This document shows positions 9,080 through 15,462 of a stretch of 36,952 nt of DNA, one piece after another. This DNA comes from Thermoproteota archaeon (GTDB lineage Archaea; Korarchaeota; Korarchaeia; Korarchaeales; Korarchaeaceae). The stretch lies in assembly GCA_015522685.1 (NCBI GenBank), contig WALU01000004.1:1-36952 (forward strand). Reading direction: 5' to 3'. The notes below the pieces were generated by a model. That model was not told where the DNA came from. It did no database searches and was given only the letters and a program-made list of their open reading frames with translations. Each line of letters starts with the position of its first letter. The first letter of the stretch is position 1. The position numbers and the translations under genes are program-made.

Positions 9080-9676
9080 ATGATGAACTTATACGAGATA
9101 AGAGAGAAGCTCCTCTCATCTGGGAGAGCAGTCTTCGACCTGAGTCAGCTATCCAATTTGCTCGGGATACCTCGCACCCATGCCAAGGTCTATGCGAGCA
9201 GGCTGATCGAAAGGGGGTGGGCTTGGAGGCCCATGAGAGGGATCATCGCTCTCACTAGCGACGAGTTCGTTATCGCTAGCCAGTTGATCGAGCCATCTTA
9301 TATCTCAATGCATGCTGCCCTCTACTTACTTGAGCTGGTAGACCAGATCCCATCCCAAATTGAGTGCGTTACTACCAAGTATAGCACTGTAGTCTCTGGC
9401 ATAAGATATAGGAAGGCGAGGTCGAGTCTATTCTTTGGGTATAAGAGGATGGAGAAAGCAGGAAGCTACGTTTTCACAGCTCTACCAGAGAAGGCTCTTC
9501 TAGACATGGTGTACTTCGACTATACTCCTCCTAAGTGGATCTTTTCCAAAATTAATCCCTCAGTATTGGAGGATATGTCTAGGGAATACTCTAGGCTGAG
9601 GAACTACAGGGCTAGGAGGGTCGTTAAGTGGGTGAAAGAAATTGCTAAACAGAGAGGAAATCTTGAGGTTAGCTAA
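9080..9676 (+). CDS. AbiEi-like antitoxin with winged-helix domain
   Basis: 198 residues. Residues ~1-65 are a winged helix of the type that opens AbiEi/COG5340 proteins (LSQLSNLLGIPRTHAKVYASRLIERGW followed by the wing RGIIAL). Residues ~70-190 form the C-terminal antitoxin region (EPSYISMHAALYL, YRKARSSLFFGYKRM, TALPEKALLDMVYF). The downstream toxin-type gene starts within its last codons, so the two are co-translated. It probably represses its own operon through the palindrome at 9053-9072 and neutralises the partner. Two ATGs are adjacent (9080, 9083). Confidence 0.75.
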   Translation: MMNLYEIREKLLSSGRAVFDLSQLSNLLGIPRTHAKVYASRLIERGWAWRPMRGIIALTSDEFVIASQLIEPSYISMHAALYLLELVDQIPSQIECVTTKYSTVVSGIRYRKARSSLFFGYKRMEKAGSYVFTALPEKALLDMVYFDYTPPKWIFSKINPSVLEDMSREYSRLRNYRARRVVKWVKEIAKQRGNLEVS

Positions 9677-10382
9677 GGCTAGGAGATTGAAGCCTTGGCA
9701 AGAGGAAAAGAGGTACGTACAAGCGCTAGTGCTCTATGCCATGAGTGACTGGCCCATCGTTCTGAAGGGAGGTACCTATCTCTGGTTCTTTCACGGATTG
9801 AACAGATTCTCAGATGATCTTGACTTCTCCCAGGTGGGGGATCTTAAGGAGGATCCTCGAGATGTGAGCTTCTCTCTTGAACTTTTTGGGTTGAGAAATC
9901 ATGTCAAGATATTGAAGGATGATAAGTACACCCTCACCTTCAGATTGGATGCTTGGGGACCCCTTTCTACCTCTGAGAAGGACCTTTGCCGGGTTCGCGT
10001 CGATATAAGTAGGAGAGAAGATGTTCTCCTGAAACCCGTGCCAGTGAAACTCGACGAGCTGCACTATGGGATTCCCATTGTTTTCCTCAGGGGGACTAAT
10101 CTTAAAGAAGTTCTAGCTGAGAAGATAAGGGCGGCCGCTGTGAGAGGTGCCGCAAGAGATCTTTATGATTCATGGTTCCTTCTTAGAAAGGGAATCAACT
10201 TGAACCAGAGCTTACTGGCAAGAAAACTTGAGTTTTACAGGGTAAGGAATCTATCAGAATTATGCGCAAGGTTACGAGCGATCGAGCCCTCTTGGAAATC
10301 GGAACTTGAACCCATAATCTTCGGTCATCTCCCTAAATTCTCAGAGGCTTATAAGGAGCTAGCATCGGCGCTTAACTGTTGA
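9642..10382 (+). CDS. AbiEii-like nucleotidyltransferase toxin
   Basis: 246 residues of the DUF1814/AbiEii family. Key motifs: LKGGTYL (residues 41-47), the catalytic RFSDDLDF (55-62) with metal-binding aspartates 59 and 61, a third acidic strand around VRVDIS, and the lysine/arginine motif AEKIRAAAVRGAARDLYD. The start appears to be TTG at 9642, inside the antitoxin gene (35-nt overlap, different frame). AbiEii proteins transfer nucleotides to RNA targets and stop growth or block phage when released from the antitoxin. The target is unknown here. Confidence 0.8.
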   Translation: MLNREEILRLAKARRLKPWQEEKRYVQALVLYAMSDWPIVLKGGTYLWFFHGLNRFSDDLDFSQVGDLKEDPRDVSFSLELFGLRNHVKILKDDKYTLTFRLDAWGPLSTSEKDLCRVRVDISRREDVLLKPVPVKLDELHYGIPIVFLRGTNLKEVLAEKIRAAAVRGAARDLYDSWFLLRKGINLNQSLLARKLEFYRVRNLSELCARLRAIEPSWKSELEPIIFGHLPKFSEAYKELASALNC

Positions 10383-10600
10383 GATCTGTTGGAGATTTGA
10401 AAGAAGGAAACAACAGCAGAGGACACCATGAGGGCAGCTAGAGGTTTCTATTTCAGTTCCTAACAGTATATAGAGCGTAGATAGACGCTGTCGCTCGAGC
10501 TTCCAGCTACTCAGCGTTCAGTTTACTATATAAGAAAGCTAATGATGTAGAAAATGTCTTTTACCTCGAAGTTGGACGAGGAGATAGCTATTTTTACCCC

Positions 10601-11347
10601 TTAGATGGTAAGGCAGCTTTAGTTGCTGGAACTTCTTCGGGTATTGGACGAGCGGCCACTATAAAGCGCTCTAGAGCAGGAACAAAGGTTGCCCTCTTCG
10701 ATATAGAGGTTGAGGATGAGTTGAAGGGTCAAGATGAGATAGATGATAGAGCCAAGTTTTACAGGCGCAACATGTTTTTTGAGGAGGATGTCAGAAAAAC
10801 CTTAGAAGTTATTCATAGGAACTTTAGTAGTTAGGATAGATATTATCGTCAATGCTGTAGGCATCATGATTAGGAAAGATGCCGGTAGAAAACGAGCGAG
10901 GAAGGGTGGGATGGGATCATAAGCATGAGTTTTAAAGGATCCCTTCTAGTTTCGAAGCACGCCATATCTTACATGAGAAAAAGTGGTGGTGGAAGCATAG
11001 TGAATATATTGGGATGGAGATTGAAGGGAGGACCTAAGGCGGTAGCCTACCACATCTTAGGGAGAGGGCTAGTTAACATGGCTAGGACGATGGTAGTAGA
11101 TTATGGAAGGAAGGGTATCAGAGTTAACTGTGTAGTTTCTAAGGATGTGGATATCCTAATGCTCAGAGAGGAGGCGAGGCAGCTCGGGATTAGTTTCCAA
11201 GAATTCTTGAAGAAGACTGCAGATAGACAGATAGGGAGAAAGGGGGGACCAGAAGATGTAGCTAATGTTATTCTTTTTCTAGCCAATGAGCTTTCCAGCT
11301 GGATAGCTGGCTTTGTTATTGCAGTCGATAGGGGAGGTTTGGCTTAA
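10601..11347 (+). pseudogene. Broken short-chain dehydrogenase/reductase (SDR)
   Basis: The N-terminal part reads LDGKAALVAGTSSGIGRA (NAD-binding TGxxxGIG-type motif) from 10601, then meets TAG near 10831. Coding resumes in another frame (DIIVNAVGIMIRK) and shifts again to EEGWDGIISMSFKGS, which continues to 11347 with the C-terminal ending FVIAVDRGG. At least two frameshifts are present. The catalytic YxxxK is YHILG, and the catalytic serine strand reads VNILGW, so serine and lysine are gone too. It ends 11 nt before gcvPA and may once have been part of that operon. The ~218 bp before it (10383-10600) show nothing recognisable. Confidence 0.8.
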
Positions 11348-11358: not shown

Positions 11359-12747
11359 ATGATGGCTTCCTATTCTCATCCTTACATCCCCAACTCCCTA
11401 GATAGGGTAAGGAGGGAGATGTTGAGGTACATAGGAGTTGAGAGTATAGATGAGCTGTACGCCAGCATACCTGAGGATTTGAGGTTCAAGGGAAGGATGA
11501 ATCTTCCAAAGCCTTTTCCCTCAGAGTATGAACTTGTGAGACATGTAAGGGGGATACTCTCCAAGAATAAGAGCTGTGAGGATTACCTCTGTTTCATGGG
11601 AGGAGGTACATGGCCCCATTATATCCCTGTGGTATGCGATGATATAGCTAGGAGATCAGAGTTTCTCACTGCCTACGCTGGCGATCCCTGTGAGGATCAT
11701 GGTAGGTGGCAAGCTCTCTTCGAGTTCCAAAGCTTGATGGCTGAGCTCGTCGATATGGATGTCGTTACAGTCCCGATATATAGTTGGGGACACGCCGCAG
11801 GAACTTCTATGAGAATGGCTTACAGAATAAATGGCCGTCGGAAGATTCTGATACCTTCGACAATTTCCCCTGAGCGGTACCTCGTTGTTAGCAATTACGT
11901 TGACCCAGCCCTAACGCTGGAGAAAGTTGGATATGATGAAGAGACAGGAATGATGGACCTTGATGATCTGGAGGAGAAGATCTCAGACGATGTTGCAGCA
12001 GTCTATTATGAGAATCCATCCTACCTGGGCTTCATAGAAACTAGAGGTAAGAAAATATGCGATATGGCTCATGATGGAGGGGCCTTATGCCTTGTAGGAG
12101 TAGATCCAAGTTCTCTTGGTGCTTTAGAGCCTCCAAGCCATTATGGTGCTGATATAGTTGTTGGAGATCTTCAGCCATTAGGAAATCACATGAATTTTGG
12201 AGGAGGATTGGCTGGTTTCCTAGCAACTAAGGATGAAGTAGAATTCGTTAGGGAGATACCTTACAGGATCTTTGGCCTGACTAAAACTTCTCAAAGGGGA
12301 GAATATGGGTTTGGAGACGTCCTGTTCGAGAGGACATCCTTCGAAAGGAGAGAGAAGGCTAAGGAGTTCGTCGGGACGGCAACAGCCCTTTACGGCATAG
12401 TTGCTGCTGTTTATCTATCTCTAATGGGACCTAGGGGGATTTATGAGCTTGGGAAAACTATACTCCAGAGATCCAAGTATGCTATCCAAGTTTTATCTGA
12501 GATAGAAGGAATTACTGCACCTAGATTCAAGGCTCCTCATTTCAAAGAATTCGTGGTGAGCTTCAATGGTAAGAGCGTTGCTGAGATAAACAGGGAGCTC
12601 CTTAAAGATGGAATTTTTGGCGGCATAGATCTTAGGGATAGCTTCCCAGAGCTCGGCAATTCCTCTCTTTACTGTGTAACTGAGATCCATACGAAGGAGG
12701 ACATAGACAGGCTTGCAAGCTCCCTTGAGAGGATACTAGTGAGGTGA
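11359..12747 (+). CDS. Glycine dehydrogenase (decarboxylating) subunit 1-like protein, divergent
   Basis: 462 residues, the normal length for the alpha subunit of split P-proteins (GcvPA). The family frame is clear: MLRYIGVESIDELYASIPEDLR at the N-terminus, SEYELVRH, then a glycine loop CFMGGGTWPHYIP (78-90) and RRSEFLTAY. The region usually reading PYQPEISQG.LQA instead reads GDPCEDHGRWQAL (108-120), and the NASMYDG.TA loop reads VPIYSWGHAAG (138-148). In GcvP these loops lie at the PLP/glycine site. It is probably the partner of the next gene. The substrate may be glycine or something else. Confidence 0.75.
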   Translation: MMASYSHPYIPNSLDRVRREMLRYIGVESIDELYASIPEDLRFKGRMNLPKPFPSEYELVRHVRGILSKNKSCEDYLCFMGGGTWPHYIPVVCDDIARRSEFLTAYAGDPCEDHGRWQALFEFQSLMAELVDMDVVTVPIYSWGHAAGTSMRMAYRINGRRKILIPSTISPERYLVVSNYVDPALTLEKVGYDEETGMMDLDDLEEKISDDVAAVYYENPSYLGFIETRGKKICDMAHDGGALCLVGVDPSSLGALEPPSHYGADIVVGDLQPLGNHMNFGGGLAGFLATKDEVEFVREIPYRIFGLTKTSQRGEYGFGDVLFERTSFERREKAKEFVGTATALYGIVAAVYLSLMGPRGIYELGKTILQRSKYAIQVLSEIEGITAPRFKAPHFKEFVVSFNGKSVAEINRELLKDGIFGGIDLRDSFPELGNSSLYCVTEIHTKEDIDRLASSLERILVR

Positions 12748-12751
12748 TTCA

Positions 12752-14323
12752 ATGGGATTGGCGAAGCTCAGAAGAGATTTTCATGAGGCTAGATGGGAGG
12801 AGCCGATAATATTCGAGCTGAGTAATGAAGGAGAAAGAGGAATAATAACTCCTAAAGATGAGAAGATCGAGAGGATAGTAGGAGATGGCATATCTGAGCT
12901 GCCTAGCAGCATAGTCAGGAAGAAGCTTCCCAATCTCCCGGAGCTATCTCAGAAGAGAGTTCTGATGCATTACCTCAGGCTCTCTCAAGAAATCCTAGGA
13001 GCTGATGTAAACATAGATATAGGGCAGGGAACATGCACTATGAAGTATAGCCCCAAGGTCAACGAGTTACTCGTTCAGTCCCCAAAAGTAAGTGAGATTC
13101 ACCCTTATCAGAGTGAGGAAACAGTGCAGGGAGCTCTGGAAATCATGTATAAACTAGATCTATTCCTAAGGGAGATATCTGGCCTAGATAGATTCGTTTT
13201 CCAGCCTGGAGGAGGATCTCAGGCAATTTTTGCCATAGCATCCATAATCAGGGCCTACTATAAGAGCAGGGGGGAGGAGAGAGATGAGATAATAACGACG
13301 ATCTTCTCACATCCATCAGATGCTGCTGCCCCTGCAGTAAAGGGCTTCAAGGTAATCACAGTATATCCAGATTCTGAAACTGGAATCCCTGATGCCGAAG
13401 CCCTAAGGGGGGCTATTTCCAGCAGAACAGCTGGATTCATAGTAACTAATCCAAAGGATACCGGGATATTCAATCCTAGGATAAAGGAGTTCACCAATAT
13501 AGTCCACAAAGCCGGAGGACTCTGCGCCTACGACCAGGCTAACGCAAATGGAATACTTGGTATAGTTAGAGCCAAGGAATGCGGCTTTGATATAGGATTC
13601 TTTAATCTCCACAAGACTTTTTCATCTCCTCATGGAAGTGGGGGCCCTGCCGTAGGAGCTTTGGGTGTTAAAAAGGAGCTTGAAAACTTCCTCCCAGTCC
13701 CCATAGTTGACTATGATGAATCGAGGGAGATGAGGAGATATTACCTAAATTATAATCTCCCGAGCACCATAGGAAAGGTTAGGGAGTTCTATGGAGTATT
13801 TCCTGTAGTATTGAGAGCATATGCATGGATAATGTCCCTCGGAGAGGGAGGAATTAAGGAAGTAGCAAAGATAGCAGTCTTGAACAATAACTACGTGATG
13901 TATAAGATACTAAGGGAGGTAAGGGATGCTGATATATCATATCCAGCCAATAGGCACAGAATAGAGCAGGTCAGGTATACATGGAAGAATCTCAGAGAGA
14001 AAACTGGAGTGACGACAGAGGATGTCATAAACAGGATGTATGACTTTGGATTTCACCTTCGGACAAGCCACCATCCATGGATAATACCTGAACCATTTAC
14101 AATAGAGCCGACGGAATCCTATTCTAAAGAAGAGCTGGATGAATATATAGAAGGACTGAAGGAAGTGGTTAGAGAGGCTTATGAAGAACCCGAAATGGTC
14201 AAACGTTCTCCTCACAGGAGCTCGATCCACAGAGTTGATACAAGTTGGCTTAATGATCCATCCAAGTGGGCAGTAACATGGAGGCTCTACCTGAGGAAGC
14301 ATAGAAATGGTGATTCTAATTGA
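12752..14323 (+). CDS. Glycine dehydrogenase (decarboxylating) subunit 2-like protein, PLP-dependent, divergent
   Basis: 523 residues, the PLP-binding subunit of a split P-protein (GcvPB-type). Visible: TCTMKYSPKVNE (94-105), EETVQGALE, and FFNLHKTFSSPHG with the PLP lysine at 288. The C-terminus has the FHLRTSHHPWIIPEPFTIEPTE segment. The substrate/phosphate loops differ from canonical GcvPB: QPGGGSQ replaces QPAAGAHGE, and SHPSDAAAPA (186-195) replaces the SAHGTNPASA motif. It starts 4 nt after the previous gene and overlaps the next, so the three form one operon. No gcvT or gcvH is in the window. Confidence 0.75.
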   Translation: MGLAKLRRDFHEARWEEPIIFELSNEGERGIITPKDEKIERIVGDGISELPSSIVRKKLPNLPELSQKRVLMHYLRLSQEILGADVNIDIGQGTCTMKYSPKVNELLVQSPKVSEIHPYQSEETVQGALEIMYKLDLFLREISGLDRFVFQPGGGSQAIFAIASIIRAYYKSRGEERDEIITTIFSHPSDAAAPAVKGFKVITVYPDSETGIPDAEALRGAISSRTAGFIVTNPKDTGIFNPRIKEFTNIVHKAGGLCAYDQANANGILGIVRAKECGFDIGFFNLHKTFSSPHGSGGPAVGALGVKKELENFLPVPIVDYDESREMRRYYLNYNLPSTIGKVREFYGVFPVVLRAYAWIMSLGEGGIKEVAKIAVLNNNYVMYKILREVRDADISYPANRHRIEQVRYTWKNLREKTGVTTEDVINRMYDFGFHLRTSHHPWIIPEPFTIEPTESYSKEELDEYIEGLKEVVREAYEEPEMVKRSPHRSSIHRVDTSWLNDPSKWAVTWRLYLRKHRNGDSN

Positions 14324-15462
14324 AGATGAAGGTAGGCCTTATCGTAAATCCAATAGCTGGGATGGGAGGAAGGGTCGGTTTAAAGGGAACAGATGGTCCT
14401 GAAATTTTGAAGCGAGCCATAGAGCTTGGTGCAAAGCCGTGGGCAGAGGATAGAGCTTATGAGGCAATGAAGATTCTAAGGAATCTCTTGAACGATTCGA
14501 TCGAGATCTACACCTATCCTAGTAGAATGGGGGAAAACTCCGCTAGGAGAGCTGGTTTCTTCCCCAAGATCGTGAGAGATCTAGGGGGAAGGGAAGGAAC
14601 CACAGCAAAGGATACTGTGAGGGCAGCGAGGGACATTAGAGAGTTGGGAGTAGATCTTCTCCTATTTACGGGAGGGGACGGAACTGCAAGAGACGTCTAC
14701 AGAGCCATAGCTGAGAAGCAGGTCGTCTTAGGAATACCTACAGGGGTTAAGGTTTACTCCTCGGTTTTCGCCGCCAGCCCTAGAGCGGCAGGGGAGCTTG
14801 CAGCTAGGTTTCTCAAGAGGCAAGTGACAGAGGTAGTAGAAGCAGAAGTTCTAGACATAAATGAGGAGGCATTCAGGGAGGGAATCCTATCCGTTAGGCT
14901 CTACGGCTACTTGAAGATTCCATATGATTCTCTCTGCATACCTGGAGGGAAAATCCCCTCAGGCCATTCTGAGAAGTATACTAAGGAAGCAGCAGCTGCT
15001 GAATTCATAGACAACATGGAGGAGGATTGTATCTACATAATAGGCCCAGGAACCACTACAAAGGAAATAATGAAGAAGTTAGAGCTTAATTACACATTGC
15101 TCGGGGTTGATGCAATTCAAGGAGGGAAGCTCGTTGGGAAGGACTTGAATGAAAGGCAGATAATCAATCTGATATCCAGCAGAAAAGCGAAGGTTATAGT
15201 ATCTCCAATAGGAGGACAGGGATACATATTCGGTAGAGGAAATCAGCAGATAAGCCCCAGGGTGCTCAGGATGATCGGCAAGGAGAACATAATTATTATA
15301 GCGACTCCAGGAAAGATAGAATCTCTGAGGGGAAAGCCCATGCTCATCGATACTGGGGATGAGGAGTTGGATAAGGAGCTTAGTAGCTATTATAAGGCGA
15401 TCCTCGGCTACAGAGAGTATATAATGTACAAGGTAATCCCTGGGTATAGAGAACAATATTAG
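14320..15462 (+). CDS. ATP-NAD/AcoX-type kinase (COG3199)
   Basis: 380 residues. The start KVGLIVNPIAGMGGRVGLKGTDG is the COG3199 hallmark. LLLFTGGDGTARDV carries the GGDG motif (118-121) of the NAD kinase/diacylglycerol kinase superfamily, followed by the family segment LGIPTGVKVYSSVFAASP. Function in the family is poorly defined (ATP-dependent phosphorylation of NAD or another small molecule). GGTGAT ends 5 nt before the TTG at 14320, supporting that start, which overlaps the previous stop. Co-operonic placement with the P-protein-like pair suggests a shared pathway. Confidence 0.8.
   Translation: MKMKVGLIVNPIAGMGGRVGLKGTDGPEILKRAIELGAKPWAEDRAYEAMKILRNLLNDSIEIYTYPSRMGENSARRAGFFPKIVRDLGGREGTTAKDTVRAARDIRELGVDLLLFTGGDGTARDVYRAIAEKQVVLGIPTGVKVYSSVFAASPRAAGELAARFLKRQVTEVVEAEVLDINEEAFREGILSVRLYGYLKIPYDSLCIPGGKIPSGHSEKYTKEAAAAEFIDNMEEDCIYIIGPGTTTKEIMKKLELNYTLLGVDAIQGGKLVGKDLNERQIINLISSRKAKVIVSPIGGQGYIFGRGNQQISPRVLRMIGKENIIIIATPGKIESLRGKPMLIDTGDEELDKELSSYYKAILGYREYIMYKVIPGYREQY

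Follow-up and report, generated by a model that had tools for sequence, protein, structure and literature searches.

Can two genes that annotation models assign to glycine dehydrogenase belong to a pathway other than glycine cleavage? The question is raised by a stretch of 36,952 nucleotides from a korarchaeal genome (GenBank assembly GCA_015522685.1, contig WALU01000004.1, positions 1 to 36,952 of the forward strand; the whole stretch is called the window), in which a GcvPA-like gene (alpha), a GcvPB-like gene (beta) and a gene for a COG3199/AcoX-type kinase follow one another. A first-pass annotation, made by a model from the DNA letters, had proposed that this operon acts on an amino acid other than glycine. 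Here we report that the divergent pair is a real family, distinct from the canonical P-proteins, and that it very probably does not serve glycine cleavage.

The locus and its genome

The features concerned are the following.
10550..11347, + strand: pseudogene of a short-chain dehydrogenase/reductase (SDR), fourth member of the operon, still open only in its 3' part (10925-11347)
11359..12747, + strand: divergent GcvPA-like alpha subunit (P0001), 462 aa; PF02347 221 bits, NF001696 512 bits
12752..14323, + strand: divergent GcvPB-like beta subunit (P0002), 523 aa, with the pyridoxal phosphate (PLP) lysine K288; NF003346 554 bits, PF21478
14320..15462, + strand: COG3199/AcoX-type kinase (P0003) of the NAD-kinase superfamily, 380 aa, with a GGDGT motif; PF01513 72 bits, PF20143 71 bits

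The open reading frame coordinates agree with the three-gene layout first described, with 4 nt between alpha and beta and a 4-nt overlap between beta and the kinase, and every motif quoted at that time is present in the translations. The three genes are real, but a fourth member, the SDR gene directly upstream of alpha, had been overlooked because it is a pseudogene in the window genome; it is intact in 7 of 7 close relatives. By Pfam and NCBIfam models alpha is GDC-P/GcvPA, beta is GcvP2_C/GcvPB and the kinase domains are NAD_kinase (PF01513) and NAD_kinase_C (PF20143). The pair scores above the NCBIfam equivalog cut-offs (364 for NF001696 and 441 for NF003346), so these models fail to split the divergent from the canonical family. 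The nearest solved structures for alpha and beta are the Thermus P-protein subunits; a sequence search of the kinase against the PDB gave no meaningful match.

Among relatives the loci are conserved at 77-88% identity, and the ratios of nonsynonymous to synonymous substitution (dN/dS) against the closest relative are 0.042, 0.048 and 0.062 for alpha, beta and kinase, which are rough values given the high dS. In the window genome purifying selection on the three genes is strong, and this conservation rules out chance.

The genome itself (1.48 Mb, 92% complete) was searched for gcvT, gcvH and a second gcvP, as the first-pass annotation had advised, and all were found: GcvH at C13:6060, GcvT at C32:44890 and a canonical gcvPA/gcvPB pair at C13:11966-14886, to which the window pair is about 38% identical. 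The reported absence of gcvT and gcvH thus holds for the surroundings of the three genes but not for the genome, and since the genome has a full canonical set, the window genes are an additional, paralogous pair and not the only P-protein. The finding that would have refuted the first-pass annotation, this pair as the only P-protein of the genome, was thus looked for and does not hold. Three proteins with an NAD-kinase C-terminal domain are encoded: the window kinase, a second COG3199 protein of 366 aa on C10 and an ordinary-sized NAD-kinase-family protein of 287 aa on C35.

A separate family that does not follow GcvH

In a quick tree of 88 beta sequences, for which no root was inferred, a branch with an SH-like approximate likelihood ratio test (SH-aLRT) support of 100 split 51 divergent from 37 canonical sequences. 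The separate clade neighbouring COG3199 that had been anticipated was therefore recovered, with the kinase almost always adjacent. The 8 korarchaeal divergent betas cluster together within the Synergistota part of the tree, sister to L085 with support of 93, and this nesting suggests lateral transfer.

A relative on a Synergistaceae contig prompted a survey of 188 Synergistota genomes. Alpha matched strongly, with 506 bits or more, in 59 of them, canonical GcvPA reaching at most 333 bits. Canonical GcvPA was accompanied by GcvH in all 52 genomes that carry it; of the 59 genomes with the divergent pair, 28 have GcvH and the other 31 lack it (odds ratio 1.0, p = 1). These 31 include G153, G166 and G211, each essentially one contig, the others being of unstated completeness. 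Independence of the divergent pair from GcvH and the glycine cleavage system is well supported by these counts, on which glycine cleavage in trans was rejected.

Residues kept and residues replaced

We compared 56 divergent with 43 canonical alphas and 55 divergent with 44 canonical betas. In beta, H187, D261, A263, N264, K288 and P293 are invariant in both sets; K288, the PLP lysine already seen to be retained, is found in 100% of the 55 divergent and 44 canonical sequences, and to judge from these residues PLP chemistry is kept in the divergent pair.

Elsewhere the two sets differ. The alpha loop YTPYQPEVSQG becomes YAG-(E/D)PxEDHG, and the position equivalent to human Tyr164, which is listed as an active site residue (PMC7259800), is deleted in 56 of 56 divergent alphas and is Tyr in 43 of 43 canonical ones; D113 and H114 are family-specific. 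The segment REQHIRR..ATSN becomes RTSFxxRexAKEF, with Gln replaced by Ser (100% in each set), Asn by Phe, Tyr or Trp, and Ser by Glu or Asp. The corresponding human segment, Q366-K376, was predicted by docking to bind the H-protein (PMC7259800). In beta, a His invariant in canonical sequences is replaced by Glu405 (98%), while R403, R408, S439, H440, T450, D236 and N241 are found in 100% of the divergent set and differ in the canonical one. R403, R408 and H440 are new invariant residues of a rewritten C-terminal patch, in which the two arginines may bind a phosphate or a second acid group. The loops first singled out as rewritten hold as fixed differences in their cores, GDP.EDHG, QPGGG and SHP, which mark the family, but SWGHAAG and DAAAPA vary within it. 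With the beta model as query, the top Foldseek matches were P-proteins, which confirms the P-protein fold, and the first family of another kind was sphingosine-1-phosphate lyase.

The kinase and its partners

In Synergistota the kinase was found in 57 of the 59 genomes with the pair, and the pair in 57 of the 60 genomes with the kinase (Fisher p 7e-42). It lies on the same strand and within 6 kb of alpha at 56 of 64 loci, 5 of the other 8 being near contig ends. The kinase is thus a near-obligate partner of the divergent pair. At G148:C1:410497-411596, in a genome that is essentially one contig, the kinase is in two open frames, by a frameshift or a sequencing error.

COG3199 also forms a second type of operon with a HisC/CobD-like PLP enzyme, found in the window's own genome, Peptoclostridium and the Synergistota G151 and G152:
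L160, 1291-3365 (own-genome C10): kinase and HisC/CobD-like operon
L161, 4620-6729: kinase and HisC/CobD-like operon
L162, 2486-4718: kinase and HisC/CobD-like operon
L132, 7992-10068: kinase and HisC/CobD-like operon

These partners score under both the HisC and the CobD family cut-offs; HisC and CobD themselves work on O-phosphorylated amino compounds. An AIR-synthase/ThiL-like gene precedes the Synergistota operons of this type. In two other places COG3199 lies among canonical genes: beside gcvT, gcvH and gcvPA/PB (L187, 4416-10364), and among gcvT, gcvH, gcvPA/PB, glyA and the glycine C-acetyltransferase gene kbl (L188, 3056-16336). The HisC/CobD-like, L187 and L188 contexts point to serine/glycine/threonine-type chemistry for COG3199, and they also show that this kinase family is not confined to the divergent pair. 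Where COG3199 genes stand alone, in Aeromonas and Pseudoalteromonas, their neighbours offered no useful hint of a substrate, and in the papers searched no characterised substrate was found for the COG3199/AcoX-like family.

Operon types and distribution

In the window's phylum the divergent beta was found in 8 of 29 genomes, the 7 others being 79-84% identical to the window beta. The order SDR-alpha-beta is the same in all 8, and the kinase comes next in 7 of 7 whose contig continues.

For Synergistota, 40 gene neighbourhoods were examined, and an SDR close to the korarchaeal one was present in 29 of them. Type I operons have the order SDR-alpha-beta-kinase; frequent companions are a second SDR, an amidohydrolase, NhaC-type transporters and a divergent GntR gene. 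Type II operons contain a GldA-like Fe-dehydrogenase (GldA family, 539 bits with a cut-off of 336), the kinase, DUF436, a B12/radical-SAM protein, alpha and beta. Type III operons contain an Lrp-type regulator, alpha, beta, SDR, a Tdh-like Zn-dehydrogenase, the kinase, DUF819 and an M20 peptidase; the best family model for this Zn-dehydrogenase is L-threonine 3-dehydrogenase, with 228 bits, short of the cut-off of 380. The Tdh-like and GldA-like genes are confined to these minority types. The dehydrogenase is an SDR, a GldA-like or Tdh-like enzyme or an aldo/keto reductase according to the operon, and the regulator is of the GntR, Lrp, LysR or TetR kind. Further neighbours are M20 peptidases and amidohydrolases, as well as transporters of the NhaC type and for amino acids. 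The gene context of the divergent pair is one of amino-acid catabolism. In the type II operons L086, L089 and L097 the B12-binding radical SAM protein scores above the cut-off of TIGR03975, a model of C-methyltransferases for ribosomally synthesised and post-translationally modified peptides (503 bits), and the DUF436 protein stands alongside the P-protein-like pair.

Kinase, alpha and beta are also found together on plasmids of Gemmobacter, two Rhodococcus, Paracoccus, Sphingomonas, Roseicitreum and Antarctobacter; on a Natronosalvus plasmid alpha and beta are together, with the kinase at another place on that plasmid. The carriers thus include plasmids of proteobacteria, actinobacteria and haloarchaea, and annotated plasmid records label the pair gcvPA/gcvPB.

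A wider archaeal search covered 398 Thermoproteota genomes and 390 genomes of the phylum of a 'Thermoplasmata' relative. In Thermoproteota 39 genomes exceeded the score threshold; among 19 loci inspected, 2 were divergent (G464:C25 and G281) and 17 canonical. Bit score alone was therefore rejected as a family test in archaea, where the loops decide. By its loops G813, from the phylum of the 'Thermoplasmata' relative, is divergent, so that among the archaeal loci inspected the divergent form is rare outside the window's phylum (G464, G281 and G813 only). The archaeal canonical GcvPA sequences (L172-L188) score about 450-560 bits against the divergent model.

The decayed SDR and its flank

The SDR remnant is 72% identical in DNA to the intact SDR gene of L038 and is frameshifted by many frame-breaking indels; its YxxSK motif, YCASK, has become YHILG. 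It has decayed while alpha, beta and kinase of the same operon stay strongly constrained. The second strand of the SDR ends in Asp (ILD), a residue that at this place usually indicates NAD, not NADP, as the cofactor. Further upstream in the window (9080-10382) an AbiEii-type nucleotidyltransferase gene (PF08843, 84 bits) and a small partner gene with no Pfam match sit between a GDPD gene and the remnant; at the same place in L038 the GDPD gene is followed directly by the intact SDR gene, with no AbiEii-type gene.

Proposed pathway and alternatives

We tentatively favour, as a possibility, a scheme in which the pair, coupled to the kinase and independent of the H-protein, works as a PLP lyase or decarboxylase on a beta-hydroxy amino acid or an amino alcohol. 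The three genes, joined in most relatives by the SDR or a different alcohol dehydrogenase, would form a catabolic module outside the glycine cleavage system. Alpha and beta, a P-protein paralogue, would have kept PLP chemistry and given up the transfer of an aminomethyl group to lipoyl-GcvH. The substrate might be a serine- or threonine-like beta-hydroxy amino acid, or an amino alcohol derived from it; the COG3199 kinase would phosphorylate its hydroxyl and so make it reactive, the PLP enzyme would decarboxylate it and/or eliminate the phosphate to give a carbonyl compound, ammonia and phosphate, and the NAD-type SDR (or a GldA-like or Tdh-like dehydrogenase) would interconvert alcohol and carbonyl forms. 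A phosphorylated amino substrate is favoured because of the invariant R403, R408 and H440, of the pairing of COG3199 with HisC/CobD-like PLP enzymes and of its place among glycine cleavage genes, glyA and kbl in L188. We infer the substrate, the order of steps, the product and the identity of the kinase product with the substrate of the PLP enzyme. The first-pass annotation is thus supported in part, namely for the separate clade, the COG3199 partnership and the fixed loop differences, and it is plausible that a phosphorylation belongs to the same pathway.

Some observations weigh against this scheme. The SDR, lost in the window genome and missing from some Synergistota operons, is either not indispensable or replaceable from elsewhere. 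No kinase is visible at a few loci (G181, and one locus each in G064 and G145), and COG3199 occurs without the pair in Pseudoalteromonas and Aeromonas. Since it also lies twice beside canonical genes (L187 and L188), its substrate may not be tied to the divergent enzyme. Finally, the AlphaFold models, built from shallow alignments, have a mean predicted local distance difference test score (pLDDT) of 57 for the kinase and 59 for beta, too poor to place R403 and R408, whose position in the active site is therefore presumed from sequence.

A different order of events was also considered, in which nothing is phosphorylated at first: the SDR or Tdh-like dehydrogenase would oxidise threonine or another beta-hydroxy amino acid to its beta-keto form, the PLP pair would decarboxylate or cleave this to an amino ketone, reduction by a GldA-like enzyme or a second SDR would turn the ketone into an amino alcohol, and the kinase would phosphorylate that downstream, in a manner resembling the classical aminoacetone/aminopropanol route. 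The type III Tdh-like and type II GldA-family dehydrogenases and the two SDRs of many operons would fit, and GldA can act as an aminoacetone reductase. However, the Tdh-like match is far under its cut-off, beta-keto amino acids lose CO2 spontaneously, a gene for a phospholyase was not seen and the SDR is dispensable in the window genome, and we regard this order as rather unlikely. We think it improbable that the module serves some other polar amino acid, for instance a beta-carboxylated one or an N-acylated one released by the M20 or amidohydrolase neighbours, and that the kinase acts on a later intermediate that no longer contains nitrogen: M20 peptidases, an ArgE/DapE deacylase, amidohydrolases and AMP-ligases are indeed often nearby, but they differ by lineage, and only kinase, alpha and beta are constant.

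The pair might instead be a glycine dehydrogenase tuned to other conditions that uses GcvH and GcvT in trans. Both are encoded in the genome and the equivalog cut-offs are exceeded; yet the absence of association with GcvH in Synergistota, the rewriting of docking and glycine loops in every divergent member and the parallel retention of canonical gcvPA/PB make this very improbable. Hardly any weight can be given to an ordinary NAD kinase feeding NADP to the dehydrogenase, with the PLP pair as a simple amino acid decarboxylase: the kinase does have NAD-kinase superfamily domains, but C35 already encodes a separate protein of that family, the SDR strand is of the NAD type, and the kinase is still present where dehydrogenases of other families take the place of the SDR. 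Returning to the kinase-coupled scheme, its widest form appears doubtful to us, namely a widespread mis-annotated family with the P-protein fold that would use a kinase-made O-phospho substrate and no H-protein, catalyse a decarboxylative elimination that is not known for the fold, and support a fermentation route in Synergistota and Korarchaeota.

Comparison with known systems

No description of a module of a kinase and P-protein-like subunits was found in the open papers searched, subscription papers lying outside the search. Since pipelines label the pair gcvPA/gcvPB and about half of the Synergistota carriers are without GcvH, glycine-cleavage capacity would be wrongly inferred from it. 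That Synergistota, Korarchaeota and the plasmids of marine and soil bacteria share this conserved module suggests a route for the breakdown of an amino compound, and the poorly characterised COG3199/AcoX kinases thereby gain a role that can be put to the test.

With the two-subunit GcvPA/GcvPB of Thermus thermophilus (1WYT/1WYU) the divergent pair shares the fold, the split into adjacent genes and the PLP lysine with its surroundings. It differs in forming a separate clade, in the deletion of the Tyr164 equivalent, in Glu405 in place of His, in the new invariant Arg403, Arg408 and His440, in the rewritten H-docking segment, in its lack of dependence on GcvH and in its tie to COG3199. The pair thus has the fold and ancestry of the P-proteins but fails the functional features of that family. 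The window kinase shares PF01513, PF20143 and the GGDGT motif with the COG3199/AcoX-like family, whose members are named 'ATP-NAD kinase family protein' in annotated records; it differs in lying in an operon with P-protein-like genes and, at 380 aa, it exceeds in length the genome's ordinary-sized NAD kinase of 287 aa. The COG3199 and HisC/CobD-like operons likewise join a kinase to a fold-type-I PLP partner, which is however a single-chain class I/II aminotransferase-like enzyme and not an alpha/beta P-protein. Sphingosine kinase with sphingosine-1-phosphate lyase, and the threonine-phosphate decarboxylase CobD, follow the logic proposed here, in which an amino alcohol or a hydroxy amino acid is phosphorylated before PLP-dependent cleavage or decarboxylation, but they belong to other enzyme families with other substrates, so that their resemblance to the window module is one of logic only.

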